Translations under genes and position numbers: made by a program | DNA from: Caedimonas sp. | GTDB lineage: Bacteria; Pseudomonadota; Alphaproteobacteria; Caedimonadales; Caedimonadaceae | NCBI GenBank assembly: GCA_016794245.1 | Contig: JAEUKR010000047.1 | Location: 1 to 64,000, forward strand | Length of the DNA: 64,000 bases | Direction of reading: 5' to 3' | The notes under the pieces: model-generated | The model's database searches: none | What the model was told of the DNA's origin: nothing | What the model saw: only the letters and a program-made list of their open reading frames with translations | In this document: positions 8,875 through 57,842 of the stretch, one piece after another | Numbering within the stretch: position 1 is the stretch's first letter | Layout of the letters: every line of letters starts with the position of its first letter

Positions 8875-9005
8875 TATACCCTTCGTCTTTCAAAATTCGG
8901 GGGCGTTGGACATCGGGACTCGTGCCGCTTATGCACTGGCAAATACGCTATGCGGGACGCACCGCTCGCTCGCCACCCCACATCTGGAAATCCCTTGGGC
9001 ACATA
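8875..9005 (-). repeat. Dispersed palindromic repeat, copy A (131 nt)
   Basis: A full copy in reverse orientation between clpX and lon. It starts TATACCCTTCGTCTTTCAAA, has the inner GGGGGCGTTGGACATCGGGA and GCCACCCCACATCTGGAAAT arms, and ends TTGGGCACATAT. It would be transcribed between the two protease genes. Confidence 0.8.
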
Positions 9006-9030
9006 TCTTTTTGTCCTGGATAAAATCGAA

Positions 9031-10296
9031 TCATGCCTGATTCAATTTCAGCTCAGACTTTTCAGCATAGATTAGCAGAGGTTGTGCATGGCCTTCAACA
9101 ACTTCACGATTAATAATCACTTCCTCAATTCCCGTACTGCCGGGAAGTTCATACATGGTTTCAAGCAGAATATTTTCCATGATCGAACGTAAGCCTCGCG
9201 CTCCCGTATTGCGTGTGATCGCCCGCTGAGCCACCGCCAAAAGCGCATCCTCACTGAAAGTCAGCTTTACATCCTCCATATCAAACAATCTTTGAAATTG
9301 TTTGACAAGGGCATTTTTAGGTTGTTGAAGAATCTGCATCAAAGCAGGCTCGTCCAAATCTTCCAATGTCGCTACTACAGGCAAGCGTCCAACAAATTCA
9401 GGAATAAGCCCATACTTCAACAAATCCTCAGGCTCTACTTCTTTCAGGATTTCACCTGTTCGGCGATCTTCAGGTGATTTCACATCAGCGCCAAAGCCAA
9501 TCGAAGAACCTTTTCCACGACTACTGATAATTTTTTCAAGGCCAGCAAAGGCGCCGCCACAAATAAAAAGAATATTCGTGGTATCCACTTGTAAAAATTC
9601 CTGTTGAGGATGCTTGCGTCCCCCTTGAGGTGGAACGGAAGCGATTGTCCCCTCCATAATTTTTAACAAAGCTTGCTGTACCCCCTCCCCCGAAACATCG
9701 CGGGTAATGGAGGGATTATCGGACTTGCGGGAAATCTTGTCGACCTCATCGATATAGACAATCCCGCGTTGTGCTTTTTCAACATTATATTCCGCAGCTT
9801 GCAACAATTTAAGGATGATATTTTCAACATCCTCTCCCACATATCCCGCTTCCGTTAAAGTGGTCGCATCCGCAATGGTAAAAGGGACATCAAGAATACG
9901 CGCCAGAGTCTGAGCCAGCAAGGTCTTTCCACAACCTGTGGGGCCGATCAGCAAGATATTGGATTTTGCAAGCTCCACATCCGATGTTTTTGAAAAGGAA
10001 TCAATCCTTTTATAATGATTATAGACAGAAACAGCCAAAACACGCTTTGCATGAACCTGGCCAATGACATAATCATCTAAAACTTTATAAATTGTCTTAG
10101 GAGAAGGAATGCCCTTTTCAGAAACTGGCAACGCTCCCTTATTCTCTTCGCGGATAATTTCAATGCAAAGGTCGACACACTCATCACAGATAAAAACACT
10201 GGGACCCGCGATAAGTTTGCGCACTTCATGCTGACTTTTTCCACAAAAAGAACAATGAAGAATTTCTTTAATCTGTTCGTCTGATGATTTCGTCAT
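9031..10296 (-). CDS. clpX: ATP-dependent Clp protease ATP-binding subunit ClpX
   Basis: The 421-residue protein has the N-terminal C4 zinc domain ([21 protein letters not shown]), Walker [16 protein letters not shown], Walker [12 protein letters not shown] and the [10 protein letters not shown]-like sensor region ([15 protein letters not shown]). It unfolds tagged substrates and feeds them to ClpP. The IGF-type loop for ClpP docking is expected near [10 protein letters not shown]. It starts with ATG after AAAGAGAT. It lies downstream of clpP across a 317-nt gap that is largely a dispersed repeat. Confidence 0.97.
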
Positions 10297-10375
10297 ATCT
10301 CTTTAGTCACTTTTAAATTATTCCTCAAAAGAGTGCAAAGGATAAAATATAAATTTCCCATCTTTTCAGCAATCA

Positions 10376-10512
10376 TATACCCAAAGGATTTCAACGTCTG
10401 AGGTGGCGGAAGAACAGTGAGCCCCGCACAGCCTACGTACCAGTGTACCAGTACATAAGCAGGACAAATCGTGATCTCCAACGCCCCCGAATTTTGAAAA
10501 ACGAAGGGTATA
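10376..10512 (+). repeat. Dispersed palindromic repeat, copy B (137 nt)
   Basis: A full copy filling most of the 317-nt clpP-clpX gap (10297-10613). Left arm TATACCCAAAGGATTTCAAC, right arm CGCCCCCGAATTTTGAAAAA, end GAAGGGTATA. The centre is more divergent than in copies C and D and contains an extra small palindrome, GTACCAGTGTACCAGTAC. I see nothing else in this gap. Confidence 0.85.
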
Positions 10513-10613
10513 CTTTATAGAATCCCTCAAAACCTTATAAAAAACGTTAACAACCAGAATCATTTTAGCACAGCCCGCGCATCAACTTTCCAGTGGCACG
10601 TGCCGCTGAATTT

Positions 10614-11246
10614 TTATTTTTTTGGCTCGACAGGCAACAGACGCGTCGTCACAATTTCATCAATCAAGCCAAAGGTTTTTGTCTCTTCCGCCGACATAAA
10701 ATGATCGCGCTCCACCGTTTCCTCGATCACTTTTATGGGTTGTCCCGTTCTTTCCGCCAGGATTGCATTCAAACGAGAACGCATCTTCAAAATTTCCCGA
10801 GCGGCGATTTCAATGTCAGTGGCTTGACCACGGGCGCCTCCATGAGGTTGATGAATCATCACACGCGCACTGGGAAGCGCATAACGCTTGCCCTTGACCC
10901 CGGCACAGAGCAACAGTGCCCCCATCGACGCCGCTTGTCCTATCACAATAGTGGATACATCACACCGAATGTAATTCATAGTGTCAAAAATAGCCAAACC
11001 AGCCGTTACAACACCCCCAGGAGAATTAATATAAAAGGATATATCTTTTTTTGGATTTTCAGACTCCAGAAACAGAAACTGGGCACAAATCAAATTGGCC
11101 ACATCATCATTAACTTCGCCTGTCAGAAAAACTATGCGCTCTTTAAGAAGCCTTGAGTATATATCAAAAGATCTCTCGCCCCGCGCTGTTTGCTCAATCA
11201 CCATTGGAATGAGCGTATTCTGGAACTGATATTTAGTATCAATCAT
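10614..11246 (-). CDS. clpP: ATP-dependent Clp protease proteolytic subunit ClpP
   Basis: This 210-residue serine protease has the catalytic Ser in [11 protein letters not shown], His in VMIHQPHGG and Asp in the ERDHFMSA segment. It forms the tetradecameric chamber used with ClpX. The ATG at 11246 is chosen over that at 11258 because GGAG lies 6 nt before it, while the upstream ATG has no good site. It follows tig at 86 nt in the usual tig-clpP-clpX order. Confidence 0.96.
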
Positions 11247-11332
11247 GGGTTTCTCCATTTATTATCTTGTATTTACCTTTCGCCAAAGACGGATTAAGAG
11301 ATAAGAGAGCGGTCTGCTAAAGCCTGCGTCTG

Positions 11333-12691
11333 CTAAACCTCATCTTCTTCCGTAATTTCATAAAAACGTTTTTTAAGTTCAGCAAAAAGAACCTCTTTTT
11401 TATGAACCGTCGCTTTTTCAAGAATCAACTCGATCACTCTATCTTCAAAAAGAGGCGCTCTTAAAGCCGCCTGCGCTTGCTTATTGGAATGGTAATAGTC
11501 GATGACTTTTCGTTCCATACCTGGATATTTCATTGCTTCGCGCATCAACGCCCGCTCAAATACTTTCTGAGATACGACGATATTATGTTCACGACCAATC
11601 TCGGCAAGCAATAGTCCCAGACGGACACGGCGCTCGGCAATCTGTCGATACTGTCTTTTCAATTCCTCTTCATTATCTTCGGCAGGATCTTTTTTACCTT
11701 TTTTCTTTCCATCAGACGTTTGACTCTTTTCTCTTTGAAGCTGTTCCCAAATGGATTTAAACTCAAGCTCCACAAGACCTTGAGGAACATCAAACGTGAA
11801 GTTTTCTGCAAATTGATCCATGATTGTACGCTTTGCATCCAGAAAAGACATGTGGTTGTGATTTTCTGCAAGCTGTTCCCAGACGGATTTTTTAAGATCG
11901 TCTATGGAGGATTTTTCAAACTTCTGCGCAAATTCCAGTGTCAGTTCAGGAACGACTTTCTCCTTGATCTCTTTGATTTCAATTGCAAAATGCGCCGTCT
12001 TTCCTGCCAGGTCCTTCGCCTGATACTCTTCGGGAAAATTGATGTCAAACTCTTTCTTGTCGCCAGCTTTAAGTCCAACCAGGTTCTCTTCAAATCCCGG
12101 GATAAAGGTTTCCGATCCTAATTCCAGATCCATGCCCTCGGAAGACCCGCCGGCAATAGCTTTACCTTCTAAAGTTCCCTTAAAAGCTAAATGAACGACA
12201 TGACCTTTTTCTGCCCTGGTTTTTTCATCCGCCGGTTTGAGAGCCGCATGATTTTTTCTAATATTTTCAAGTGCCTCTTCCACTTCCTTATCGTCAACCT
12301 GAGAAACCAGCTGTTCCAGTTTGATTTTGGAAAGATCAATTTTTTCGATATCTGGCAAAAGCTCCATGACAACGCTGCCTTTCAGACCTTCCCTATTTTG
12401 ATCGTCTTTTATGGTAACTTCAGGTTGAAGAGCCACACGGAATTTATGCTGATCGATGATCTGGCGCATCCCATCCTGTAAGGCTTGCTCCAAAACTTCG
12501 CCTTTGACACTGGATTCATAGCGCTGTTTAAGAATAGGCAGGGGAATTTTGCCAGGTCGAAACCCATCGACCTTCAAAGACTGACCCAGCTTCATCAATC
12601 GTTGATCAAGCTTCTCTTCAATTTCTTTCGATGAAAAGACCAGATCGAATTCCCGAATTAACCCTTCAGATTTTGTTTGTGTAATATCCAT
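11333..12691 (-). CDS. tig: Trigger factor, ribosome-bound chaperone/PPIase
   Basis: The 452-residue protein has the ribosome-binding signature GFRPGKIPLPILKQRY near residue 45, the FKBP-like peptidyl-prolyl isomerase domain (GHVVHLAFKGTLEGKAI, ELGSETFIPGFEENLVG) and the long helical C-terminal chaperone arms. It binds nascent chains at the ribosomal exit. It is the first gene of the run toward clpP, and lies 50 nt after tRNA-Leu on the same strand, so the tRNA may be processed from a shared transcript. Confidence 0.95.
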   Translation of the reverse strand: MDITQTKSEGLIREFDLVFSSKEIEEKLDQRLMKLGQSLKVDGFRPGKIPLPILKQRYESSVKGEVLEQALQDGMRQIIDQHKFRVALQPEVTIKDDQNREGLKGSVVMELLPDIEKIDLSKIKLEQLVSQVDDKEVEEALENIRKNHAALKPADEKTRAEKGHVVHLAFKGTLEGKAIAGGSSEGMDLELGSETFIPGFEENLVGLKAGDKKEFDINFPEEYQAKDLAGKTAHFAIEIKEIKEKVVPELTLEFAQKFEKSSIDDLKKSVWEQLAENHNHMSFLDAKRTIMDQFAENFTFDVPQGLVELEFKSIWEQLQREKSQTSDGKKKGKKDPAEDNEEELKRQYRQIAERRVRLGLLLAEIGREHNIVVSQKVFERALMREAMKYPGMERKVIDYYHSNKQAQAALRAPLFEDRVIELILEKATVHKKEVLFAELKKRFYEITEEDEV

Positions 12692-12741
12692 GGATTCTGC
12701 GCCTAAAATTTAAATGTTACTCACGAGACCCGTTGCCTTTA

Positions 12742-12826
12742 TGGTGCGGGCGGAGGGACTTGAACCCCCATGGCTTTCGCCGCCAGATCCTAAGTCTGGT
12801 GTGTCTGCCAATTCCACCACGCCCGC
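12742..12826 (-). tRNA. tRNA-Leu(TAG)
   Basis: An 85-nt class II tRNA: acceptor GCGGGCG pairing with CGCCCGC, D arm TGGTGGAATTGGCAGACAC, anticodon arm CCAGACTTAGGATCTGG with anticodon TAG, a long variable arm, T arm GGGGGTTCAAGTCCCTC, and an encoded CCA end. Confidence 0.96.
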
Positions 12827-12881
12827 CCATTCCCCAAGCATTCCTTGAAAAACCCTTAAAGTTTCATCACTTCATTCTGAA

Positions 12882-12906
12882 TATACCCAAAGAACGTCAA
12901 GATTTG
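12882..12906 (+). repeat. Dispersed repeat, left-arm fragment (copy S)
   Basis: TATACCCAAAGAACGTCAAG matches only the left terminus of the dispersed palindromic repeat, next to the tRNA-Leu gene. Confidence 0.4.
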
Positions 12907-13056
12907 GTAAAGTGACTTTTCTTTTGATAACCTTGATTGATTCAAATTGCAACGATTTCAGATATCCTGCCAGCATTTTTGTATTTTTCTCTTCCTTGTC
13001 TCCATTTGAAAATCCGCCCTTCCGGGAAGATGGACAGGAACTTTGAAAACAAAAAA

Positions 13057-13863
13057 TTAGGACAGATTCTCCCGAAGGCTCTCTCTCAACTTTTCATTGG
13101 AGGCCAGAATGCTGCCCGTCTCAAAAAGAGAGCCTTTGCCAGAGATTTCATCCACATAACCTCCCGCTTCTCGAACAAGGACAAGACCAGCAGCAATATC
13201 CCAGTAAGCAAGGCCATACGCAAAAAAGCCATCAAAGCGGCCCGCCGCGACATAACACAGATCAAGAGCGGCCGCTCCATAATGGCGAATCCCCGCTGTC
13301 TTACGCGTTATATCCATTGCTTTCGATACCAAAGCAGCCGATCGTGTTGGATCAACCTTATTTGTGATCCCTGTAGTGGCAAGGAGCGCGTCGGCGAGGT
13401 GAGTGCGTGAGGAAACTCTTATGCGTCGATCATTCAAGAAGGCTCCTCTCCCCTTTTCAGCATGGAACAACTCGTCCTTGACAGGATCATAAACGACGCC
13501 TGCCAGAATCTCATTGTCAAACTCAAGAGCAATTGAAATACAAAAATGAGGAATCGCGTGTAAAAAGTTAGTGGTTCCGTCAAGGGGATCAACAATCCAG
13601 CGATGACGTTTATCGACGCCGGAGATTTCACCCGTTTCTTCCATAAGAAACCCAAAATCAGGACGCGCCTTTTGCAATTCCTGGTAAATAATTTTCTCCG
13701 CCTGATGATCCGCCACGGAGACGAAATCGCCAGGGCCTTTCCGGGAAACCTGCAAATGCTCAACCTCATTAAAATCCCGGATTAATCCTCGCGCTGCCCT
13801 CACAGCGGCTGTAGACATAATATTGATCAAAGCGGAACCAGTGCGTACACGTGTTTGTAACAT
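13057..13863 (-). CDS. suhB: Inositol-1-monophosphatase family protein SuhB
   Basis: This 268-residue protein has the metal-binding motifs of the family: EE in FLMEETGE, WIVDPLDGTTNFLHAIPHF and AYWDIAAGLVLVREAGG. The fold hydrolyses myo-inositol monophosphate and related phosphates using Mg2+; in bacteria SuhB also assists rRNA transcription and ribosome maturation. The length is typical. It lies downstream of efp in the same direction, the two separated by a dispersed repeat. In many alphaproteobacteria efp and the IMPase are neighbours. Confidence 0.9.
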   Translation of the reverse strand: MLQTRVRTGSALINIMSTAAVRAARGLIRDFNEVEHLQVSRKGPGDFVSVADHQAEKIIYQELQKARPDFGFLMEETGEISGVDKRHRWIVDPLDGTTNFLHAIPHFCISIALEFDNEILAGVVYDPVKDELFHAEKGRGAFLNDRRIRVSSRTHLADALLATTGITNKVDPTRSAALVSKAMDITRKTAGIRHYGAAALDLCYVAAGRFDGFFAYGLAYWDIAAGLVLVREAGGYVDEISGKGSLFETGSILASNEKLRESLRENLS

Positions 13864-13900
13864 TATTCAAATCCTGTTTATGGAACAAATATTAGGAAAA

Positions 13901-14028
13901 TATACCCAAAGGATTTCGACATCCGGGGTGGCAGACACGCGGTGAGTCCCGCGCCGCGCACACAAGGCACATGAGCAGGATGAATTCAAACGTCCAACAC
14001 CGCCGGATTTCGAAACGTGAAGGGTATA
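13901..14028 (+). repeat. Dispersed palindromic repeat, copy C (128 nt)
   Basis: An intact copy between suhB and efp: TATACCCAAAGGATTTCGAC at the left, GCCGGATTTCGAAACGTGAA near the right, closing GGGTATA. It is 115/128 identical by eye to copy D on the other side of efp, in the same orientation and without gaps. Confidence 0.9.
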
Positions 14029-14044
14029 TCGAGGGATCAAGGGA

Positions 14045-14611: not shown

Positions 14612-14639
14612 AATTTGTCCTTGTTATTGAATTACCTTT

Positions 14640-14767
14640 TATACCCAAAGGATTTCGACATCCGGGATGGTGGACAAGCGGTGAGTCCTGCGCCGCGCAC
14701 ACGAGGCACATGAGCAGGACGAATTCCAATGTCCAACACCCCCGGATTTTGAAACGCGGAGGGTATA
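14640..14767 (+). repeat. Dispersed palindromic repeat, copy D (128 nt)
   Basis: An intact copy upstream of efp: starts TATACCCAAAGGATTTCGAC, ends GCGGAGGGTATA, with the inner arms CATCCGGGAT and CACCCCCGGATTTTGAAA. It and copy C are the best pair for a consensus. Confidence 0.9.
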
Positions 14768-14867
14768 CGAAACAGAGAGATAGTTTATTCGTATGTGAAC
14801 TGTAAGTTATTTCAAGCTAAATTAAAATGTCAAAACAAAAATGAAGGAAACTCTTCTTTTAATTTTT

Positions 14868-22147: not shown

Positions 22148-22181
22148 TATACCCAAAGGATTTTGAAAAGCGAAGGATATA
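22148..22181 (+). repeat. Dispersed repeat reduced to its two ends (copy E, 34 nt)
   Basis: TATACCCAAAGGATTT is joined directly to TGAAAAGCGAAGGATATA: the two termini of the repeat without any centre. It lies between ogt and tRNA-Leu(CAG) and looks like an internal-deletion derivative. Confidence 0.7.
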
Positions 22182-22270: not shown

Positions 22271-22357
22271 GCCCAGGTGGCGGAATTGGTAGACGCGCTA
22301 GTTTCAGGTACTAGTGGGCGCAAGCTCGTGGAAGTTCGAGTCTTCTCCTGGGCACCA
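22271..22357 (+). tRNA. tRNA-Leu(CAG)
   Basis: An 87-nt class II tRNA: acceptor GCCCAGG with CCTGGGC, D arm TGGCGGAATTGGTAGACGC, anticodon arm CTAGTTTCAGGTACTAG with anticodon CAG, long variable arm, T arm GAAGTTCGAGTCTTC, encoded CCA. Confidence 0.96.
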
Positions 22358-22411: not shown

Positions 22412-23053
22412 ATGGAAAACAGAAAAGAAATAATGAACCTGCATGTTCAGCACCACTTCCATGATTTGCCTGAAACAGTCAAGTTTGACTCTCTGGTCGC
22501 TGTTGACACGGAAGCCATGGGACTGAATCTTCATCGAGATCGATTATGCGTTGTCCAGCTATCAGGGGGAGACGGGATATGTCATGTGGTTCAATTGAAT
22601 CAGGATCATCGTTATGACGCACCTCATTTAAAGAGAGTGCTCACAGATCCCGACATTACTAAAATATTTCATTTTGGACGATTTGACATCGCTGTCCTTT
22701 ATAAATATCTGGAGGTTACAACACAACCCGTGTATTGCACGAAAATCGCTTCAAAGCTGGTTCGTACCTTCACAGAGCGTCACGGTTTGCGTGATCTGTG
22801 CAAGGATCTTCTAAGCATTGACATCTCAAAAGATCACCAAACATCTGATTGGGGAGAAGCTCATCTGACGCCGGAACAATTAAAATATGCGGCAACTGAT
22901 GTGCTTTATCTCCATAAGATTAAAGAGATTCTGGATCGAAGACTTGTGCGCGAAGGAAGACAGAAACTTGCCCAGGCCTGTTTTGATTTCTTGCCGACTT
23001 GCGCAAAGCTTGACCTTTTAGGGTATTCTCAGTTAAATATACTTGAACATTAA
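22412..23053 (+). CDS. rnd: Ribonuclease D-type 3'-5' exonuclease
   Basis: This 213-residue protein is a stand-alone DEDDy exonuclease domain: D and E in LVAVDTEAMGL, the second Asp in FHFGRFDIAVLY, and Y...D in EQLKYAATDVLYLHKI. It lacks the HRDC domains of E. coli RNase D, as is usual for the short alphaproteobacterial form. It trims tRNA and other stable RNA 3' ends. The ATG at 22412 gives the full frame; an ATG at 22433 is an equal choice, and neither has a strong ribosome site. The gene lies 54 nt after a tRNA and next to kdsD, a common alphaproteobacterial order. Confidence 0.9.
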   Translation: MENRKEIMNLHVQHHFHDLPETVKFDSLVAVDTEAMGLNLHRDRLCVVQLSGGDGICHVVQLNQDHRYDAPHLKRVLTDPDITKIFHFGRFDIAVLYKYLEVTTQPVYCTKIASKLVRTFTERHGLRDLCKDLLSIDISKDHQTSDWGEAHLTPEQLKYAATDVLYLHKIKEILDRRLVREGRQKLAQACFDFLPTCAKLDLLGYSQLNILEH

Positions 23054-23055
23054 TG

Positions 23056-23180
23056 TTCCTCGTCTTTCAAGGTGTGGAGATGGTTGGGGGGCTTGATTCG
23101 CCCTGCTCACGTTGTTATACGTACGCTGCGCGGATTCACCGCTTGTCCACCACCCCAGATTTTGAAAGACGAAGAGTATA
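23056..23180 (-). repeat. Dispersed palindromic repeat, copy F (about 125 nt)
   Basis: A copy in reverse orientation between rnd and kdsD. Inner motifs GGATTCACCGCTTGTCCACCACCCC match the reverse complement of copies C and D in that portion (shown here in parts: CACCGCTTGTCCACC). Both ends carry the same arm (CGTCTTTCAA and TTGAAAGACG), a hybrid form that makes a more perfect terminal palindrome. Confidence 0.7.
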
Positions 23181-26846: not shown

Positions 26847-27224
26847 CGAGGCTGAATGACCGCCTTGTCATGTCTGGAACACCAGAAAGCCCTATCCTAT
26901 ACAAATCTTGAAATCGTTTGGGGATAGACAGGCAAACTAAAAGCGACCAAGAAACCACAGCGTATGCAAAGGACTTGAGGATTGCGTGCGCGTTTTTAAT
27001 GATAACATCACCCGACAGAATCAGGCTAAGAAGGAAATCTGATAAATCATACAAGTTCTTGAGAGTTTGCACATGAAGGGTTATGATAAGAAGGTGAAAG
27101 AATGATGGTATAAAGAGATGGAAAAAACAGGTCAAGCATGTGAGCGGGACGAAGCCCTTAGATCTCGAAGCGCTTTGGGTACGCTGTGATTGCCAAGATA
27201 TTTTTAGCAAAATGAGGATATAAA
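26847..27224. other. 378-nt gap where rpoN would be expected; fragment of the dispersed repeat
   Basis: No gene is supported here. CTATACAAATCTTGAAATCG and TTTGGGGATAG at about 26897-26927 match one end of the dispersed palindromic repeat (copy R). Around 27140-27185, GAGCGGGACGAAGCCC and TTTGGGTACGC may be a second worn copy. I see no trace of RpoN motifs. Confidence 0.5.
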
Positions 27225-28678: not shown

Positions 28679-28800
28679 CATATCCAAAAGATTTCAAGAG
28701 TTGAGGACGCAGACACGCGATGAATAGCGCGCGACGTGCCTGAAGAAATCCGAAAAGAATCGCAAACGCCAGCGTCCCTAAATCCTGAAAAGTGAAGGTG
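28679..28800 (+). repeat. Dispersed palindromic repeat, copy G (diverged, about 122 nt)
   Basis: A worn copy in the divergent gap between ubiE and mutM: TATCCAAAAGATTTCAAGAG at the left, GCAGACACGCGATGAATAGC in the first half, and AAATCCTGAAAAGTGAAGGT at the right. The terminal TATACCC/GGGTATA are eroded. Confidence 0.55.
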
Positions 28801-28834
28801 AGAGATCGGTTTTTTTGACGAGCGAGAGAATCAA

Positions 28835-38314: not shown

Positions 38315-39598
38315 ATGAGAAAAATGTTACATAAATGCACCACGACGATGCACGCCATCCAAGCCGAACTACAGCGATCGAAAGAGTCGATCCAGACACT
38401 CAGCGAACGCTATCATCTAAATCCTAAAACCGTCCTCAAATGGAAACACCCGGACAGCGTGGACGACACACCGATGGACGTCACAGTGTCAGAAAGTGCG
38501 AAGCTAAGTGGAGCCGATGGTATCAGAGGGTTAGCGTGCCTAATCGTGTTAATTACGCACGCAGTAAATATGTTTTTCATCGGAACACCCTACCTGCATG
38601 GGACAGGAAGAATCGGCGTGTGGCTCTTTTTCGTGCTGAGCGCATTCTTGCTCACCTATAAGTTTGAAAGGTCTGGCTTTAGTTTATTATCCATTTCAAA
38701 CTATGTCATTGGGCGAGTTCTTCGAATAATTCCTCTTTTCTTAATTTCTGTTGTTGTCTACAGGTTATTGAGAACGGCTGGCATAAAAACCTGGAGCGAC
38801 GTCTTAGATGCGATTTTGTTTAGAAAAGCATATGCTCACCTCTGGACAATTCCTGTAGAGTTTAAGTTCTATATGTGGCTTCCCTTTATTGTATTTTTAT
38901 TAATCCACATAAGGAAAAAATTTGGTGTTATTGGAATGACTACTTTCTTTGTTTTTTCAGTAATTGTTCAGCAATCTATCTGGCCATATTGGAAAGCTCC
39001 AAACTACGTTATTGAATCTTATTGGTATTATCCCTGTTTTGGTTGGGGTATCTTTCTTGCGATATCTCTAAGAGATCTTGAAAGATATATGACCAACAAT
39101 GTCGCAAATTTTCTTTCTTTTCTGGTGCTTATTGTCTTGGCTTTAGCGATTCCAGGTATCAGGCATGTGATTCTTGCAGCGCCTGTTGAGAGCCTCCGTG
39201 GGAACCAATTTTTATTCATTGGTCTGGCATGGGCAGTTTTTATTGCATGTTCCATCAATGGCAAAGGTTGGGCGGGGTATTTAGTAAAGGCTCGCTTTTT
39301 AAGGAAGCTGGGACATCGAAGTTATTCCATTTACCTTTTTCACTGGCTGGTCTATAAAACACTGAGTCGATTCTTCCCCAATAATTTTCTCGCGATGCTT
39401 GCCAGCTTTCTAGGCGCGATTTCATTAGGGACTCTGGTATATAATTTCATAGAGCGTCCTATTGAGGATTTTCGTCACAATTCGCAGAAAAATATGACTG
39501 AAAACTTGACTCAGAATGGTTTTGTTGCATCTGTGAAAATTTTGTTCAAATGGCAAAAATGCCAATTCTTGAAGGCCGTGAAAAACATAGGTTTCTAA
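38315..39598 (+). CDS. Chimeric gene: IS481-type transposase HTH fused to acyltransferase-3 membrane protein
   Basis: A 427-residue frame made of two unrelated parts. Residues 1-54 (HAIQAELQRSKESIQTLSERY, then HLNPKTVLKWKHPDSVDDTPM) match the start of IS481-family transposases, a helix-turn-helix. From about residue 66 the rest is an OafA/YrhL-type acyltransferase-3 (GADGIRGLACLIVLITHA, RIGVWLFFVLSAFLLTYKFER, RVLRIIPLFLI, and a late YSIYLFHWLVYK) with about ten membrane helices. Such enzymes move acyl groups onto surface sugars. The native acyltransferase start is lost or is the GTG at 38486. The second part is AT-rich. It directly follows nuoI (28 nt), so it was inserted or joined by an IS-driven rearrangement, and the fusion protein may or may not be expressed. 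Confidence 0.8.
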   Translation: MRKMLHKCTTTMHAIQAELQRSKESIQTLSERYHLNPKTVLKWKHPDSVDDTPMDVTVSESAKLSGADGIRGLACLIVLITHAVNMFFIGTPYLHGTGRIGVWLFFVLSAFLLTYKFERSGFSLLSISNYVIGRVLRIIPLFLISVVVYRLLRTAGIKTWSDVLDAILFRKAYAHLWTIPVEFKFYMWLPFIVFLLIHIRKKFGVIGMTTFFVFSVIVQQSIWPYWKAPNYVIESYWYYPCFGWGIFLAISLRDLERYMTNNVANFLSFLVLIVLALAIPGIRHVILAAPVESLRGNQFLFIGLAWAVFIACSINGKGWAGYLVKARFLRKLGHRSYSIYLFHWLVYKTLSRFFPNNFLAMLASFLGAISLGTLVYNFIERPIEDFRHNSQKNMTENLTQNGFVASVKILFKWQKCQFLKAVKNIGF

Positions 39599-39607: not shown

Positions 39608-39724
39608 CGCCTCAAATCCCTCTTATTTTCCCAGATGCGATAGAGGTCTGTCATGTACGTAGGGTACGCTTCGCAGGATTCACTCCTTATCTGCCAACCC
39701 AGATTTCGCAATTCTTAGGGTATA
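39608..39724 (-). repeat. Dispersed palindromic repeat, copy H (about 117 nt)
   Basis: A reverse-oriented copy downstream of the chimeric gene; CAGGATTCACTCCTTATCTG and CAACCCAGATTTCGCA match the inner and right arms, and it ends TTAGGGTATA. The left end is worn. Confidence 0.6.
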
Positions 39725-42220: not shown

Positions 42221-42352
42221 CTATATTCTTTGCCTCTCGAAATCCCGGAGCCTGGATATCAGGACTCGTTCCGCACACCACTTATAGGTGGTACACTAGC
42301 GGGACTTGCCGCTCGTCCGCCTGCCCGAATTTCGTAATCATTTGGCTATATT
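42221..42352 (-). repeat. Dispersed palindromic repeat, copy I (132 nt)
   Basis: A reverse-oriented copy in the prs-rplY gap: CTATATTCTTTGCCTCTCGA at the left, CTTGCCGCTCGTCCGCCTGC in the inner right portion and TTTCGTAATCATTTGGCTAT at the right. The central GTGGTACAC/TTATAGGTG part is diverged and holds an extra small palindrome. Confidence 0.6.
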
Positions 42353-43370: not shown

Positions 43371-43499
43371 TCTGCCCAAAGGATTTCAAAATGCGGGGTA
43401 GCGGACGCGCGGCAAGTCGCACACAGCTTAGGCATAAACAGACGTGCAGGACGAAAGCCCGATGTCCAACGCCCCCGGATTTTGAAAGGCAAAGGGTAT
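43371..43499 (+). repeat. Dispersed palindromic repeat, copy J (about 129 nt)
   Basis: A copy upstream of prs: CTGCCCAAAGGATTTCAAAA, GGGTAGCGGACGCGCGG, GATGTCCAACGCCCCCGG and the end AAAGGCAAAGGGTATT. It is forward oriented and diverges from prs toward the ABC transporter. Confidence 0.8.
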
Positions 43500-43593
43500 T
43501 GTTGAGAAAATTTATCAGCCGGACGCGTTTGTGTAAATCATCTTATTGCAAACAAGCGGAACTGCGTTTACACTTTCGAGATGTTATGTTATA

Positions 43594-43620
43594 GCCAGAT
43601 TTTGAAAAGCGAAGGATATA
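43594..43620 (+). repeat. Dispersed repeat, right-arm fragment (copy K)
   Basis: CAGATTTTGAAAAGCGAAGG followed by ATATA is only the right terminus, about 95 nt downstream of copy J. It falls inside the open frame upstream of the transporter's binding protein, which is why the start of that gene is placed after it. Confidence 0.65.
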
Positions 43621-45120: not shown

Positions 45121-45838
45121 GCTAAAGAATCTCTATAAATCGTTCCATCGACTTCAGGTATTGAAGGGAATTACAGCAAACATTCGACAGGGAGAAGTCG
45201 TCTCCATTCTGGGACCCTCAGGCTCAGGAAAATCAACACTTTTGCGCTGTCTTAATCTTTTAGAACAACCTTCTTCGGGGCAAGTCATCATCAATGGTCA
45301 GGATATTACGAACCCCAAGTGCGATATTCGTCTGGTTCGCCAAAAAGTCGGCATGGTGTTCCAGCATTTTCATCTTTTTCCGCATATGAGCGTGTTGGAA
45401 AATCTGACCTATGCGCCGATCCATATATTAAAGGTTGAAGAACAAAAAGCGCGCGCCAGGGCTGAACATTTGCTGGAACGCGTCGGACTTGTGGACAAAA
45501 CAAATGTCTATCCTTCCAAACTTTCGGGCGGACAGAAACAACGCGTGGCTATTGCGCGGGCACTTGCCATGAATCCTGAAATTATTTTGTTCGATGAGCC
45601 TACCTCTGCCCTTGATCCTGAAATGGTCAAGGAAGTCCTCGCCGTCATTCAGGATTTGGCAACGCAACACACCATGACGCTAGCTATCGTGACCCATGAA
45701 ATGAATTTTGCCAAGGAAGTGTCGGATACGATCTGGTTTCTTGACGAAGGAGAATTGCTGGAAATAGCAGAACCAAAGCATTTTTTTACAACACCTCAAA
45801 CAGCGCGCGCTCAAAAATTTCTTGATATGGTTCTTTAA
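45113..45838 (+). CDS. Polar amino-acid ABC transporter, ATP-binding protein
   Basis: The 241-residue ATPase has Walker [18 protein letters not shown], the Q-loop [16 protein letters not shown], signature [17 protein letters not shown] and Walker [21 protein letters not shown], plus the switch His in THEMNFA. It belongs to the GlnQ/HisP group. The ATG at 45113 overlaps the permease by 8 nt, and the longer frame to 45080 lies inside it. Confidence 0.95.
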
Positions 45839-45887
45839 CGGTGGTTGTGGTTTGGTTGTCTCAAGGATTGATACAAGAGACTCTGGC

Positions 45888-45912
45888 GCAGATTTTGAAA
45901 GGTGAAGGGTAT
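45888..45912 (+). repeat. Dispersed repeat, right-arm fragment (copy L)
   Basis: CAGATTTTGAAAGGTGAAGG followed by GTATA, downstream of the transporter ATPase, matches only the right terminus of the repeat. Confidence 0.6.
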
Positions 45913-45953
45913 AAAAGCCCTACAAGGGGATATATGATGCCTGGCGTTATGCT

Positions 45954-49933: not shown

Positions 49934-49960
49934 TGTCTTCCCTGTTATGTTAACAACGAT

Positions 49961-50162
49961 TTATCCTTCGTTTTTCGCAATCCGGGGGCGTTGGGGATCG
50001 GGCTTCGTGCTGCGTACGTCCTTTATATATGCTGCGGTTTCTCGTTGGCTTTTGCCTCAGAATCCCCCTGCCCTCTTTGGCCATGAAAAAAGATATCTTA
50101 TATCTTTTGCGTGGCACTCATTGCTTGTTCGTCACCCTGGATTTTAAAATCCTTTGGGAATA
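49961..50162 (-). repeat. Dispersed palindromic repeat, copy M (about 202 nt, carrying an insert)
   Basis: In the 317-nt phaC-trxA gap (49934-50250). The reverse-oriented repeat starts TTATCCTTCGTTTTTCGCAA and TCCGGGGGCGTTGGGGATCG, then carries about 75 extra nt (TTTTGCCTCAGAATCCCCCT and following) before resuming CGTCACCCTGGATTTTAAAA and closing with CCTTTGGGAATAT. The insert resembles the second repeat type at 57118. I see no gene in the gap. Confidence 0.65.
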
Positions 50163-52008: not shown

Positions 52009-52070
52009 AACAATCTCCTTTTATTATTGATTTTTTATCATTATAAAGTCATATTTTATAATTTGGCAAG

Positions 52071-52154
52071 TATCCCCTTCGTCTTTCAAAATTCGGGAGC
52101 GCTGAGGATCGGGATTCGTCTGCCACCCTGGATTTTGAAATCCTTTGAGGATAG
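52071..52154 (-). repeat. Dispersed palindromic repeat with internal deletion (copy N, 84 nt)
   Basis: TATCCCCTTCGTCTTTCAAA and AATTCGGGAGCGCTGAGGAT begin a reverse copy that jumps after GGGATTCG to TCTGCCACCCTGGATTTTGA and ends CCTTTGAGGATA. The centre of about 45 nt is missing. Confidence 0.75.
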
Positions 52155-52188
52155 CAAAAAATGTAAATAATGTAACAGGAATATAAAA

Positions 52189-52551: not shown

Positions 52552-53155
52552 AAAGTTGGAAAAAGAAAAACCCAAGCACTTTGACAATCTTTCCTGTTCT
52601 TCTCTTCTGCCTCTATGTATTGATCTTGACGGAACCCTTATCCAAACGGATGTTTTATCAGAATCGCTTTTGATTTACGTAAAGAAATTTCCCTGGCGAA
52701 TCTTTCATATCGTTTGGTGGTTATGTCAAGGGCGGGCTATGCTCAAGAAAAAAATTGCCGATGACATTGATCTCGATATTTCCTTAATGCCCGTCAATCA
52801 AAAAATGGTTGACCTTATTTTAAATTACAAAGCTCAAGGGCATCAAATTTATTTGGTGACGGCGGCCGCCCAAAAATACGGGGAAGCGGCGGCAGCGTAT
52901 TTTGGGTTCTTTGATGATGTGCTTACAAGCGACAGCCACACAAATTTGCGTTCGACCAATAAAGCCAACGCCCTTATTCAGCGATTCGGAGAGAGACATT
53001 ATATTTATGCGGGCAACTCTGTCCATGATTTGGCCGTGTGGCGTCATGCCGCTGAAATCATTGCTGTCAATACACCGGCAAGAGTTCTTAAAAAAGCCGC
53101 TGCCCTGGGAAAGCCCATGACGATCTTGCAAGAGCGACCGAAAACAGAAAAATAA
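52508..53155 (+). CDS. HAD-family hydrolase, UbiA-linked type, standing alone
   Basis: The 215-residue HAD phosphatase domain has the nucleophile motif LCIDLDGTLIQTDVL, motif II in YLVTAAAQKYGEAAAA and the later ERHYIYAGNSVHDLAVWRH. This is the N-terminal half seen in fused HAD-UbiA prenyltransferases (about 480 residues), but the membrane prenyltransferase half is absent. The frame overlaps grxD by 44 nt from the TTG at 52508; a TTG at 52556 is an alternative start. It is either a true stand-alone phosphatase or the remainder of a truncated fusion gene. The 617-nt gap downstream has no trace of the missing half. Confidence 0.8.
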   Translation: MNLKYLQRTSRKEYKKLEKEKPKHFDNLSCSSLLPLCIDLDGTLIQTDVLSESLLIYVKKFPWRIFHIVWWLCQGRAMLKKKIADDIDLDISLMPVNQKMVDLILNYKAQGHQIYLVTAAAQKYGEAAAAYFGFFDDVLTSDSHTNLRSTNKANALIQRFGERHYIYAGNSVHDLAVWRHAAEIIAVNTPARVLKKAAALGKPMTILQERPKTEK

Positions 53156-53472
53156 CTGTTCCAAGAGACATCTTTGCCTAAAGAATCTCCGTGCCATATC
53201 TGATGATGCAAGAGGTCTGTTCATGAAATCAACTATATTTTAACCTCTCCTATGTTCTCATACTTTCTATAGAACTGTCTTGGGTCTATAGATGAAGGGC
53301 AAGCTCATTGTACAACCTAAATAGAGATAAAATGCTCTATATCATTTTTCTTTACTCATGATATTGTTTATACGTATAGCAAATATATCAACTTCACATA
53401 TATCTTAGCAATACTCCAAAATACTCTCCTAATATATGCATATAACGTAGGGGGGATATGCAAAAAATATTC
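53156..53472. other. AT-rich spacer with a repeat fragment
   Basis: No gene is supported. The left end, CATATCTGATGATGCAAGAG then GTCTGTTCATGAAAT (53197-53229), belongs to the second repeat type. The rest is AT-rich and holds several TATA-like runs, which may include the small-RNA promoter. Confidence 0.4.
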
Positions 53473-53501
53473 TTCTTTTAATGATCCATACAGGCTATAA
53501 A
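53473..53501 (+). promoter_or_regulatory. Putative promoter of the small RNA
   Basis: TTCTTT (53473-53478), a 17-nt spacer and TATAAA (53496-53501). The -10 is good, the -35 weak. It lies just upstream of the structured region and would start transcription near 53508. Confidence 0.4.
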
Positions 53502-53507
53502 AAATCA

Positions 53508-53643
53508 TCAAGAGTTTATCTCTTAATGAGTTTCGAGCGCAAGGCTCGGAAAGGGTCAGAGACCAAATTGTCTTTGATCCTACGTCTCCCAGACGTGAAG
53601 CCTCCCTGTTAAACTTGGCCGGGGTTAAGTCCCCGGCTCTTTT
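53508..53643 (+). ncRNA. Probable small RNA with two exposed CU-rich (anti-Shine-Dalgarno) motifs
   Basis: About 136 nt between the HAD gene and accA fold into four clear hairpins: CGAGC-GCAAG-GCTCG (53534-53548), an 11-bp stem GGGTCAGAGAC / GTCTTTGATCC (53553-53580, two G-U pairs), ACGTCT-CCC-AGACGT (53582-53596) and a terminator. The loop plus stem edge GTCTCCC and the single-stranded GCCTCCCTG (about 53600) are CU-rich and complementary to GGAG/GGGAG. Known trans-acting alphaproteobacterial sRNAs of the AbcR/ar15 type use such CUCC motifs with a Rho-independent end. I infer a regulator of mRNA translation. No sequence family is claimed; a 6S RNA is not supported by the hairpin layout. Confidence 0.55.
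53618..53643 (+). terminator. Rho-independent terminator
   Basis: GCCGGGG-TTAAGT-CCCCGGC followed by TCTTTT. A 7-bp GC stem and a T run on the + strand make a strong terminator for the small RNA; it has no T run in reverse. Confidence 0.85.
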
Positions 53644-53772
53644 ATCCTCTTCTTTCCCTTAGACCTATCCTCAAATAATTTCAGAATCTATAGGGACGAG
53701 CGAGCGGTGACCTCCATACGCGACATTCATAAGATTTCCTTCATCATCGACTCTAGCGAACGGTATATTCCT

Positions 53773-54729
53773 TTAGCTCAACCCTAGTTGACCCATGGTC
53801 AGAAACTTTTGGCGGCGGTGATTGTGCAATCCTTCAGGAGAATCATTTAAATAGTTTTTCAGCGCTTTTTCTATGGCATCGCCTGTCTCAGCAATGGCGG
53901 ATTTTGGCGAACGTTGCGCTCCTCCCAAGGGTTCGGGAATAATACAATCAATGATTTGAAGCGCTTTAAGGTCTTGAGCTGTCAACTTCTGGGCCGCGGC
54001 GGCATCCTGTTTCCTGTCGGCGCTTCGCCACAAAATCGAGGCGCACCCTTCAGGCGTCACGACTGAATAGATGGCATGTTCGAGCATTAAGACTTCGTTG
54101 GCCACAGCCAGAGCGATAGCCCCTCCTGACCCTCCCTCTCCCGTCACTGTAGCAATCACGGGAACACGCGCCTTAAGAAACGCTTCAATGCTTCGGGCGA
54201 TTGCTTCAGATTGACCTCGCTCTTCGGCATCTTTTCCGGGGTGTGCTCCCGCTGTGTCAACGAAGGTCAGGATCGGCAGCTTATAATCGTTCGCCAGATG
54301 AACCAGACGACGGGCTTTACGATAACCTTCGGGGCGCGGCATACCAAAGTTATGCAAAAGACGGGATTCAACATCATGTCCTTTTTCCGTCCCCATCACC
54401 ATGACGGGTTGGCCGCGAAAACGCCCCAATCCTCCGATCACAGCCTTATCCTCGGCAAACGCGCGATCCCCCGCCAATTCTACAAAATCCTCAATCAATT
54501 GACCGATGAAATCAAGACAATGAGGACGTTCAGGATGACGTGCAACCAGGACTTTTTGCCACGGGGTAAGGCGTGAATATGTCTGATGTAAAAGCTTTCG
54601 CACCTTATCTTCCAACCGCTCGACTTCTTTTGAAATATTGAAATCTTTCGAAGAGGAAAGATGACGCAGCTCGACGAGTTTGCTTTCAAGCTCGGCAATA
54701 GGCTGTTCAAATTCCAGAGGGGTCGTCAT
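53773..54729 (-). CDS. accA: Acetyl-CoA carboxylase carboxyltransferase subunit alpha
   Basis: The 318-residue subunit has the N-terminal LEFEQPIAELESKLVELRHL and the family segments GYRKARRLVHLANDY, PILTFVDTAGAHPGKDAEERGQSEAIA and VTGEGGSGGAIAL. It moves carboxyl from biotin to acetyl-CoA for fatty acid synthesis. It lies 21 nt after xerD in the same direction, as in other alphaproteobacteria. Confidence 0.96.
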   Translation of the reverse strand: MTTPLEFEQPIAELESKLVELRHLSSSKDFNISKEVERLEDKVRKLLHQTYSRLTPWQKVLVARHPERPHCLDFIGQLIEDFVELAGDRAFAEDKAVIGGLGRFRGQPVMVMGTEKGHDVESRLLHNFGMPRPEGYRKARRLVHLANDYKLPILTFVDTAGAHPGKDAEERGQSEAIARSIEAFLKARVPVIATVTGEGGSGGAIALAVANEVLMLEHAIYSVVTPEGCASILWRSADRKQDAAAAQKLTAQDLKALQIIDCIIPEPLGGAQRSPKSAIAETGDAIEKALKNYLNDSPEGLHNHRRQKFLTMGQLGLS

Positions 54730-54750
54730 TTCAATGTCCTTTGATATGAT

Positions 54751-55713
54751 TTATCTCTTTGTCCTAGCCTGTTTTGCAAGCGTTGACAAGGGATGACGCT
54801 CTAACACAAGCCGTTCCATCTTTTCAGTCATAACATGCGTGTAGATCTCGGTCGTTGAAACATCGGCATGGCCCAAAAGCTGTTGAACACTCACTAAATC
54901 TGCCCCTCGATCAAGAAGATGGGTGGCGAACGCATGGCGCAGAACGTGAGGCGACACACGTTGAGGATCAAGCCCTGCTTTCAAGGTAATTTCTTTTAAA
55001 ATTTTCCCAAAACCCTGTCGCGTTAAATGTCCCTTCGCGCTTTTTGAGGGAAAAAGCCATGAAGAAAGTTTTGAGGAAGACGAGGAAGGCTCAAAAACGT
55101 GTCGGACTTTTAAATATGACCTGATCGCTTGCAGGGAAGGATCAGATAATGGTACGATACGTTCTTTTCCACCTTTTCCCTTGATGATCAGATAAAGTTG
55201 CCCAGCCTGTAACGCTTGCAGAACGGTAAGTGTTGAAAGAGTCACAAGTTCCGAAACCCGCATTCCCGTGGCATAGAGAAGTTCAAGTAGGCATCTGGCC
55301 CGCGTCCCATCCGGCCCTGTCATTCCGTTCGTCACTTCCAGGAGAGCAAACACTTCATTCTCATGAAGAATTTTGGGAATTGACCGCCCTTGACGAGGAC
55401 TGTCCAGCATCAGCAGCGGATTATGCTGAATATGACCTTCGTTAAGAAGGAACTTGAAATATTGTCGCAAAGCCGAGAGCCGTCGCAATCGGGTGGAAGC
55501 ACTCAACTGACGCGCATCAAGTTCTTTTATATAGGGCAATATGTCTTCTTCCGTTATGCTATCCATTTTTTCGTCAGGATGCTTCTCCTTTATAAAGGCG
55601 AAAAATTCCTCTAGATCCGCCTTATACGCCATCAACGTATTTTGGGCAGCACCTCGCTCAACCGAGAGCATTTCCAGAAATGATTCAATCAAATATGTCA
55701 CACGTGTCTGCAT
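54751..55713 (-). CDS. xerD: Tyrosine recombinase XerD
   Basis: The 320-residue protein has an N-terminal SAM-like domain (FLEMLSVERGAAQNTLMAY) and the catalytic residues Arg in YATGMRVSELVTL, the Lys in KGGKERIVP, the HxxR in SPHVLRHAFATHLL, His in LLGHADVSTTE and Tyr in TEIYTHV. It resolves chromosome dimers at dif. The ATG at 55713 was chosen; the frame to 55758 starts inside a repeat fragment. XerC versus XerD was settled mainly by the accA neighbour, so it carries some doubt. Confidence 0.88.
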   Translation of the reverse strand: MQTRVTYLIESFLEMLSVERGAAQNTLMAYKADLEEFFAFIKEKHPDEKMDSITEEDILPYIKELDARQLSASTRLRRLSALRQYFKFLLNEGHIQHNPLLMLDSPRQGRSIPKILHENEVFALLEVTNGMTGPDGTRARCLLELLYATGMRVSELVTLSTLTVLQALQAGQLYLIIKGKGGKERIVPLSDPSLQAIRSYLKVRHVFEPSSSSSKLSSWLFPSKSAKGHLTRQGFGKILKEITLKAGLDPQRVSPHVLRHAFATHLLDRGADLVSVQQLLGHADVSTTEIYTHVMTEKMERLVLERHPLSTLAKQARTKR

Positions 55714-55724
55714 TTTTACAACTC

Positions 55725-55770
55725 TATACCCAATGTCCAACACCCCCGGATTTCGCAAGGCAAAGGGTAT
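55725..55770 (+). repeat. Dispersed repeat with internal deletion (copy O, 46 nt)
   Basis: TATACCC joined to AATGTCCAACACCCCCGGAT then TTCGCAAGGCAAAGGGTAT. Only the left end and the right half remain. It lies 11 nt upstream of the xerD ATG and supplies the upstream in-frame codons there. Confidence 0.75.
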
Positions 55771-55911
55771 CTGATTTGCGCGTAGGGCTATTTCATCTCT
55801 AACAAACGAAAAAATAAAATATTGATAATAGCTTAGGATATTAGCTGTAATATTAAAAAACTAGTTAAAAATAATTGGGTAAAACGACTTTTAAAGTCCC
55901 TGCTTCCTTAA

Positions 55912-56055
55912 ACAATCATCAAAGAAATTAAAACCTCTAAAAAATATCAAATGGCCAAAGCGCTGAACTTTTCATTTGGTCAAGGATTTTACTTTTCGAA
56001 TCCGTTGCCGTGTGGAGAATTGGCTTTTCTCCTGGAAAAAGATCCGGTATGGTGA
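55912..56055 (+). pseudogene. Remnant of an EAL-domain (c-di-GMP phosphodiesterase) C-terminus
   Basis: The frame reads MAKALNFSFGQGFYFSNPLP then CGELAFLLEKDPVW and stops at 56053. FGQGFYFSNPLP is the characteristic end of EAL domains (xGQGYxFSxPLP). An in-frame stop lies at 55909, and the upstream EAL motifs are absent. It lies in the 385-nt gap before trhO and would be the decayed relic of a c-di-GMP-degrading gene. Confidence 0.5.
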
Positions 56056-56155
56056 ATCATCTTTCAGAATGAGGTTGGTTTGAAAAACATCCTTTTTGGC
56101 ATGGAGAAACATTCCTGCTCGCATGGGATTGATAAAAATTTAAGCGGATTTGAAA

Positions 56156-57064
56156 ATGTCACATAGTGTCGTTGCGGCTCTTTACAAATTTGTTTTGCTT
56201 GAGGATTTTCAGGATTTGCAAATGCCTCTCCTGAAGGTTTGTCAATCAAACAAAGTCAAGGGAACGTTATTGCTCGCGCGGGAAGGAATTAACGGCACCA
56301 TTGCAGGCACGCGGGAAGGAATGGATGCTGTCGTTTCTTATCTGCATACTGATCCGCGTTTTTGCGATCTTGAGTATAAAGAATCCTTTGCTCAAACCAT
56401 GCCTTTTTATCGGATGAAAGTCCGGTTGAAAAAAGAGATTGTTACCTTGGGCGTGCCCACTGTTGATCCTACTCAAAGAGTTGGAATCTATGTCGAGCCG
56501 GAACATTGGAATAACCTGATAAACGACCCCGAAGTTGTGGTCATCGACACGCGAAATACATACGAGGTCGCGATTGGAAAATTCAAAAGAGCCAAAAATC
56601 CCCGCACCCAAACCTTTCGAGAGTTTCCTCAATTTGTGCAATCTCACCTTGATCCGGAAAAGCATAAAAAAGTGGCGATGTATTGTACGGGAGGGATTCG
56701 TTGCGAAAAAGCATCGTCTTATATGCTGCAAGCCGGCTTTGAAGAAGTCTATCATCTCAAGGGGGGGATTTTAAAATATCTGGAAAAAGTGCCTGCCCAC
56801 CAAAGTTTATGGGAAGGTCAATGTTTTGTTTTTGACCAACGAACAGCAGTGAAAGAAGGACTCAGTCCTGGTGATTTTTCATCCTGTCATGCTTGCCGGC
56901 ATCCTTTGTCAACAGAAGACCGCGCGTCAAGCTGTTTCGAGGAAGGAATATCCTGTCCTCATTGTTACAACGCTTTGAACCCTGAAAAGAAGCATCGCCT
57001 GGCCGAGCGTCAACGCCAGTGTCAATTGGCCGCCGCCAGGGGATTGAACCATATTGGGTCATAA
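56156..57064 (+). CDS. trhO: tRNA uridine(34) hydroxylase TrhO (YceA), rhodanese-like
   Basis: The 302-residue protein has an N-terminal acylphosphatase-like domain ([18 protein letters not shown]), a rhodanese domain with [11 protein letters not shown] and the catalytic Cys in [17 protein letters not shown], and a C-terminal region with CxxC pairs ([17 protein letters not shown]). The family makes 5-hydroxyuridine at tRNA position 34. The ATG at 56156 is used; a TTG lies 6 nt upstream. Confidence 0.93.
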
Positions 57065-57117
57065 TAGACTTCTTTCTCAAGGTATATCTATATCCTATAT
57101 CTGGCGGGTGATTTTGC

Positions 57118-57163
57118 CTGAAAATCCCTGCGCCCTATCTGTGATGAAAGAATTCTAATGAAA
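57118..57163 (+). repeat. Second dispersed repeat type, partial copy
   Basis: CTGAAAATCCCTGCGCCCTA then TCTGTGATGAAAGAATTC between trhO and xseB. It resembles 53180-53228 (CTAAAGAATCTCCGTGCCAT then ATCTGATGATGCAAGAGGTC) and the insert in copy M. Confidence 0.35.
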
Positions 57164-57164
57164 T

Positions 57165-57428
57165 TCAGAGTGTTTCTTCAAGTGGCGATGGGACTGTCGA
57201 GAAAGTCTCGTTTGCATCCTGGACAATATGTTCTATTTTCAGTCGCGCTTCGTCCAAAAGTTTCTCGCCATGTTTGCGCAGGCTTGTGCCGCGTTCATAC
57301 GCTGTGATGGCCTCTTTTAAGGGAATTCGCCCTTCTTCCAGTTTCCGCACAAGCATTTCAAGCTCTTTCATGGACTCTTCAAAAGAGAGACTTTCAACAT
57401 CAGTCAGTATATCAACGGCACGCGTCAT
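57165..57428 (-). CDS. xseB: Exodeoxyribonuclease VII small subunit
   Basis: The 87-residue protein has the XseB helices (SFEESMKELEMLVRKLEEGR, IPLKEAITAYERGTSLRKHGEKLLDEARLKIEHI). It pairs with XseA, which is not in the window. The ATG at 57428 is used; the frame upstream to 57455 has no ribosome site. Confidence 0.92.
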   Translation of the reverse strand: MTRAVDILTDVESLSFEESMKELEMLVRKLEEGRIPLKEAITAYERGTSLRKHGEKLLDEARLKIEHIVQDANETFSTVPSPLEETL

Positions 57429-57461
57429 CCTATTTTCCCGCTCAAAGGCATACAAGAAATC

Positions 57462-57494
57462 TATACCTCCAACATCTTGAAAGGTGAAGGGTAG
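57462..57494 (+). repeat. Dispersed repeat fragment (copy P)
   Basis: CTATACCTCCAACATCTTGA then AAGGTGAAGGGTAG: a left end joined to the right arm, just upstream of xseB. Confidence 0.55.
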
Positions 57495-57768
57495 ATTGCA
57501 AGAAGTTTATACAATTTTCTCGATTATAGAGAGATTGTTCAAAAATGAAAACCACTGATTAGACTTCTTTGGTGATGAAAGATGTCTGATGAAGATTCTT
57601 TCATAAGGACTTCACTCAGTCCGCCCATTACGACGAAACCTCCAAAAACACAAATAAAACAACGGCGGCGCACATAAAAAACACGGCAAGTTTCTAATCT
57701 GCTTGTTATCTGCTTGTTAATATGATTTTACTGTTTCTTCTATGGGGTAACCGAACGAATTAAATTTT
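57495..57768. other. Spacer without a recognisable gene
   Basis: A 274-nt AT-rich stretch between repeat fragments P and Q. The TTAGACTTCTTTGGTGATGA at 57563 is similar to the second repeat type. I see nothing else. Confidence 0.4.
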
Positions 57769-57842
57769 TATATCCTTCGTCTTTCAGGATCTGGGAACGT
57801 TGAATGTCGCAGGGGTTCCGTTCTGCAAATACCTTAGGTATA
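57769..57842 (-). repeat. Dispersed repeat, truncated (copy Q, 74 nt)
   Basis: TATATCCTTCGTCTTTCAGG, CTGGGAACGTTGAATGTCGC and GGGGTTCCGTTCTGC match the first half in reverse orientation, followed by AAATACCTTAGGTATAT. The second inner arm is missing. Confidence 0.6.

Follow-up and report, generated by a model that had tools for sequence, protein, structure and literature searches.

The stretch of 64,000 nucleotides analysed here, which we refer to as the window, contains repeated palindromic sequences that run from TATACCC to GGGTATA, and it raises the question of whether these repeats are mobile elements, and if so of what kind, or RNA signals that are kept for a function at each site. A first-pass annotation of the window had described about 19 dispersed copies and had taken them either for mobile DNA of a non-autonomous kind or for a REP/ERIC-like sequence with a possible effect on mRNA stability or termination. 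We put at roughly 0.9 the joint probability that the repeats are miniature inverted-repeat elements of the ERIC/IRU family, about 128 nt long, which were inserted at TA, were moved in trans and then decayed. ERIC elements are the basis of a widely used typing method, and we know of no mobiliser of these elements so far.

Repeat copies in the window and in the genome

The window contains the heptamer TATACCC 18 times, where 2.0 occurrences would be expected and none of 100 shuffles gave more than 7, and a repeat search of the window recovered both orientations of the arms. We used two models to score individual copies: R1, a covariance model trained solely on 24 of this genome's own copies, and R2, built from an alignment (A2) of seven lineages. 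At E <= 0.001, R1 detects 13 of the 19 places listed in the annotation (8875, 10376, 13901, 14640, 23056, 28679, 39608, 42221, 43371, 49961, 52071, 22148 and 57769). These 13 copies stand, while 55725, 43594, 45888 and 26897 are weak end fragments, 57462 is weak with R2, and 12882, where there is a left-end-like start only, finds support from neither R1 nor R2. The copies and associated features are as follows (neighbouring genes from Pfam matches where so marked).

8875..9003, minus strand: full-length element of the ERIC family, lying between clpX and lon (R1 119.8 bits, E 4.5e-24; Pfam)
10376..10512, plus strand: full-length element between clpP and clpX (R1 114 bits; Pfam)
13901..14028, plus strand: full-length element between a suhB-like inositol phosphatase gene and efp (R1 136 bits; Pfam)
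14640..14767, plus strand: full-length element between efp and an hscA-like gene (R1 140.5 bits; 90% identity to 13901)
22148..22181, plus strand: 34-nt remnant, two ends fused via internal deletion, beside tRNA-Leu (tRNA at 22271; R1 30.4 bits, E 1.3e-4)
23052..23180, minus strand: diverged full-length element (R1 70.9 bits)
26886..26926, minus strand: possible end fragment (R1 E 0.85, not significant)
28679..28803, plus strand: diverged full-length element upstream of mutM (R1 53.7 bits; Pfam)
39615..39724, minus strand: degenerate element (R1 32.1 bits, E 5e-5)
42222..42350, minus strand: full-length element between rplY and prs (R1 88.7 bits; Pfam)
43371..43500, plus strand: full-length element between divergent prs and solute-binding protein genes (R1 119.2 bits; Pfam)
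43590..43620, plus strand: right-end remnant, located where the gene for the solute-binding protein has its 5' end (R1 E 0.16, weak)
45888..45913, plus strand: right-end remnant (R1 match 45806-45913, E 0.26, weak)
49960..50162, minus strand: element interrupted close to the apex by a piece of a second palindromic family (R1 66.9 bits)
50016..50092, minus strand: second-family fragment (TAGACYTCTTG ends) inside the 49960 element (81% identity, E 2.9e-14)
52071..52153, minus strand: element with internal deletion (R1 68.8 bits)
55725..55771, plus strand: right-half remnant with TATACCC start (R1 match 55658-55771, E 0.09; 90% identity to the right arm)
57462..57495, plus strand: possible fused-end remnant (R2 E 0.36, weak)
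57769..57842, minus strand: truncated element (R1 26.6 bits, E 8.6e-4)

The description of the family as dispersed palindromes bounded by TATACCC and GGGTATA holds, with full copies running from heptamer to heptamer, and the similarity between copies spans the entire element instead of being confined to the 10-nt ends, which the annotation had named as a refutation. The Pfam neighbours likewise agree with its placement of copies between genes and in some cases within operons such as clpP-clpX-lon.

In the whole assembly (1.33 Mb in 56 contigs, 95.7% complete) R1 finds at least 139 matches at E <= 0.1; the total may be higher, since only 150 of 915 candidates were scored. The density is about 104 repeats per Mb. 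The left end, TATACCCAAAGGATTT, occurs 120 times in the genome with up to two mismatches, against twice for the reversed pattern. In the window, Rfam at gathering score returned nothing but tRNAs, and a pattern scan across genome contigs, own record excluded, gave five scattered single matches in unrelated bacteria.

Homology to ERIC elements

The E. coli ERIC consensus is 127 nt long, starts with TATACCC and ends with GGGTATA (PMC2759123). R1 matches all seven of seven E. coli ERIC loci over model positions 1-128 (27.9-34.4 bits), and in 17 kb of E. coli DNA it gives no match besides these seven. The consensus of our own genome is 65% identical to the published E. coli sequence (PMC2759123); the alignment of the two scores 34.5, where the best of 2000 dinucleotide shuffles reaches 4.5, and an HMM profile gives the E. 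coli consensus 26.2 bits and shuffled sequences at most 5.0. In neither comparison do the shuffles preserve the hairpin. Among twelve readable f201 elements, labelled 'same phylum' and presumably of enterobacterial type, identity to E. coli ERIC ranges over 65-89%, with eight elements reaching at least 82%, and identity to our consensus over 56-69%. For f205 elements, which probably belong to Vibrionaceae, the identity to E. coli ERIC is 65-76%, so that our family, at 65%, is almost on a par with Vibrio-like elements in its closeness to E. coli ERIC.

Further features that define ERIC elements are found here as well: homology over the whole element, a length of about 127 bp with TATACYC/GRGTATA termini, a single imperfect hairpin, and a multicopy, intergenic distribution. 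Like ERIC/IRU/RU-1, the repeats are 127-128 nt long from TATACCC to GGGTATA, fold into a long imperfect hairpin, have an apex of TTAC/GTAA or GTAC/GTAC type followed by GTGA, lie between genes, are non-autonomous and give rise to short deletion forms. They differ from ERIC/IRU/RU-1 in their identity of 65%, in their alphaproteobacterial host, in their density, in having in-frame insertions within conserved genes and in the presence alongside them of a second family with the same apex. It could be argued that the repeats are an unrelated palindromic MITE that came to resemble ERIC by convergence on similar ends and a GC-rich hairpin, given that the identity is just 65%, that palindromes have little sequence freedom and that a sister genus has no detected copies. 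We consider this very unlikely, as the profile match is end to end with equal length, ends and apex in seven of seven ERIC loci, the scores lie far above those of dinucleotide shuffles (an imperfect control, the shuffles having lost the hairpin), and lineages G249, G329, G254 and G119, together with the Vibrio-like elements, bridge the alphaproteobacterial and enterobacterial forms. Judged by these comparisons, the repeats are best regarded as homologues of ERIC/IRU, and the annotation was right to see in them an ERIC-like, non-autonomous mobile element, whereas its REP alternative was not borne out.

We also note that the Rfam family RF02818 (V_AS5) matches an E. coli ERIC locus (L058:1441-1564) from end to end at 48.1 bits, under its gathering score of 96 bits, and that this family, the Vibrio RNA AS5 'antisense RNA', appears to include a Vibrio ERIC copy. 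When three alphaproteobacterial copies (L003, L039 and L037) were compared with RF02818, none reached E 1.

Element anatomy and conservation of the hairpin

Full copies are about 125-137 nt long, typically about 128 nt, and are predicted to fold into one long imperfect hairpin of -33 to -58 kcal/mol with the apex GCGTAC-N5/6-GTACGTGAG. Internal mismatches near the ends (AAA/GAA and GA/GG) are conserved, which gives the element distinct left and right sides. Beyond TATA the flanks are AT-rich and unconserved. Deletion derivatives are common, an example being the two-end fusion of 34 nt at 22148.

The pairing of left and right arms that the annotation had proposed is supported by folding and covariation alike. 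Alignment A2 has one structure of 43 pairs shared by its seven lineages, and 28 of the 43 pairs show two-sided changes. There are 147 two-sided cells in A2, compared with a shuffled mean of 52, a comparison that sequence relatedness can inflate, and with no more than 41 after partners have been shifted by 1-3 columns, a control that preserves relatedness. Compensatory changes in the stem, which the annotation had asked about, are thus present across lineages. A covariation test restricted to the genome's own copies gave a weak result (2 of 22 pairs) because these copies are too alike, and it was the cross-lineage alignment that decided the question.

Resident copies and a possible role in RNA

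One explanation for such a hairpin is that it is a functional RNA structure, kept by selection at each site as a cis-acting stability or termination signal. The stability of the folds, the compensatory changes across lineages and the location of copies within operons such as clpP-clpX-lon are in keeping with this, as is the finding that a Yersinia ERIC element destabilises upstream mRNA via RNase E (PMC2229807, PMC10969869). The resident copies, on the other hand, bear few signs of such selection. Between tandem genes we find no orientation bias (25 copies in the same and 34 in the opposite orientation); one-sided changes in 67 full copies left 219 G-U and 213 A-C cells; and, with transcription direction taken into account, 93 such cells are compatible with RNA pairing and 73 are not, a difference that we estimate not to be significant. 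Many copies are truncated, and the full copies examined have no clear T-run of the kind expected of an intrinsic terminator. In the same 67 copies 119 two-sided restored pairs were counted, compared with 66 in shuffles, a figure that is confounded by subfamilies. A simple codon-based gene finder places 9 of 151 copies mostly inside predicted genes. The lack of orientation bias and the similar decay to G-U and A-C suggest that the hairpin is conserved in the element as it moves rather than through selection on resident copies for a role in RNA, and we regard the latter as very unlikely. By analogy with Yersinia, copies in this host may nevertheless affect mRNA stability at single sites.

Mobility and the search for a mobilising enzyme

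Signs of recent movement are seen in this genome and elsewhere. Identical pairs of copies occupy separate loci (L009/L011 and L005/L006), and recent identical or near-identical copies coexist with decayed ones. In genome G249, which belongs to another genus, so that the comparison concerns an ERIC-family element there and not in the Caedimonas host, three copies are absent from the orthologous sites in the sibling species G014 and G329; going by gene names read from the flanks, they lie by rpsU, between rsfS and rlmH, and beside a murC-like gene. As for the target, the element boundary is at TATA and adjacent copies sometimes have one TA in common (GGGTATATGCCC), and the empty sites in siblings are too diverged for a duplication to be read.

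The annotation had suggested looking for a full element with the same ends that encodes a transposase, and none was found in the assembly. Pairs of left and right ends 0.7-3.7 kb apart were considered as candidate autonomous elements and set aside, as they enclose a channel-like protein gene, an APC-type permease gene and other ordinary genes. Nor does the assembly, at 95.7% completeness, contain a match to the IS630-type DDE_3 domain (PF13358). Movement by a RAYT (Y1 transposase), as in REP/REPIN elements, might be suspected from the scatter of short palindromes with bulged stems between genes, but the length of 128 nt, the terminal inverted repeats of 7 bp and the TA-type sites argue against it, and Y1_Tnp was not found in the assembly by a search that is positive in E. 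coli and Caulobacter; we regard this reading as extremely improbable. Correia/NEMIS and RUP elements resemble the repeats in being TA-flanked, about 100-150 nt long and non-autonomous, and differ from them in their ends and sequence (PMC2229807); for RUP an IS630 partner has been proposed, whereas the assembly here has no PF13358 match.

If the repeats are ERIC/IRU-family miniature elements, each copy would have inserted at a TA dinucleotide, moved in trans by a putative transposase. The hairpin, with its TATACCC/GGGTATA ends, conserved mismatches and GCGTAC..GTACGTGAG apex, would be kept because the mobilising machinery requires it, and a resident copy, having no detectable selected RNA role, would degenerate through point mutations and internal deletions. 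The consequences of an insertion would depend on the site: they could include a change in the stability of operon mRNA, by analogy with ERIC in Yersinia, the addition of C-terminal tails and, occasionally, peptides inserted in frame into proteins. With dense homologues in a genome of 1.3 Mb, relatives across the class, identical copies and empty sites in siblings, the alphaproteobacterial elements offer a new place to seek the mobilising enzyme by genome comparison.

Insertions in conserved proteins

Some copies lie in frame within protein-coding genes. UbiA (L066:166-1173) contains an element-derived in-frame stretch at residues 212-256, and one of the two stretches of its TIGR01474 match reaches residue 212. 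In a YgfZ/CAF17 protein (L076:235-1356) such a stretch covers residues 139-185, where about 44 residues are surplus in the alignment to CAF17, and in a KimA-like transporter (L134:3999-6161) an element-derived in-frame insertion adds about 56 residues in the interval 447-508. A fourth in-frame insertion lies near the N-terminus of an Rsm22 protein (L069:580-1599). ERIC fusions to genes or ORFs have also been reported from enterobacteria (PMC2759123). Insertion inside conserved proteins, seen here in UbiA, YgfZ and the KimA-like transporter and in a minority of copies, is similar to that of Rickettsia palindromic elements (RPE; PMC10969869), which are likewise palindromes of about 100-150 nt in a small alphaproteobacterial genome, some of them in frame. 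Unlike RPE, the repeats have ERIC-type ends and apex and are mostly intergenic; RPE were set apart by description rather than by sequence. The UbiA, YgfZ and KimA-like insertions indicate that such elements reshape conserved proteins, as in Rickettsia.

Host and distribution

The best matches of the host's NuoD protein are mitochondrial Nad7 and the unfused NuoD of 8qby, presumably from Paracoccus, both far ahead of fused NuoCD proteins. The host nuoC and nuoD are separate genes, and the genomes with canonical ERIC elements are of the same phylum as the host, not of the same class; from these observations together we infer an alphaproteobacterial host whose genome is reduced. We note in passing that at 38315-39598 in the window an acyltransferase gene follows nuoI in place of nuoJ, and that the nuo cluster seemingly ends there.

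ERIC elements are known from Enterobacteriaceae and Vibrionaceae (PMC10969869), and the host lies outside these families, that is, outside the known range, which is not a structural criterion. We take the repeats to be an ERIC-family MITE in Alphaproteobacteria, a class from which the literature that we could search contained no ERIC report. Related elements of about 128 nt are patchy across other families of the class: R1 finds more of them in one genome of the same order but a different family and in four further genomes of the class, and it detected no copies in three species of a sister genus within the same family. Searches with R2 were positive for 30 of the 385 class genomes and for 65 of the 399 phylum genomes. 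Most of 20 readable loci in the class have an apex of the GTAC..GTACGTGAG type, while arms and ends differ. The repeats suggest that there is a wider family of hairpin elements, common to two bacterial classes.

A second palindromic family with the same apex

A second palindrome, of about 145-146 nt, sits at the apex of two ERIC-family copies (C17:102384-102655 and C13:23548-23819). Its ends are TAGACTTCTTG/CAAGAAGTCTA-like (TAGACYTCTTG/CAAGARGTCTA), and its apex, GCGTAC..GTACGTGAGGA, is the same as that of the ERIC-family element. A BLAST search of the genome with it gives 41 matches, and among the weakest are some to the shared apex; copies include L209 (G000:C17:102447-102591), L210-L220 and the fragment at 50016-50092 in the window. 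It is possible that ERIC is one branch of an old palindromic superfamily of Alpha- and Gammaproteobacteria, in which the apex GCGTAC-N-GTACGTGAG has been kept while arms and termini were swapped, partly by insertion of one palindrome into the apex of another, and in which a common trans-acting enzyme recognises the apex. We offer this tentatively and think it somewhat less probable than its negation.

Other repeats and transposase remnants

The window also carries an IS3-like transposase remnant in two pieces at 61-1182, with HTH_21 and rve domains (658-1182 by Pfam and 61-642 by eye), and an ORF at 2464-2877 that resembles a remnant of an IS5-type transposase. In genomes G249 and G014 we observed a REP-like short repeat (about GTCATCCCCGCGAAGGCGGGGACCC; L221-L232), present in many copies on both strands.
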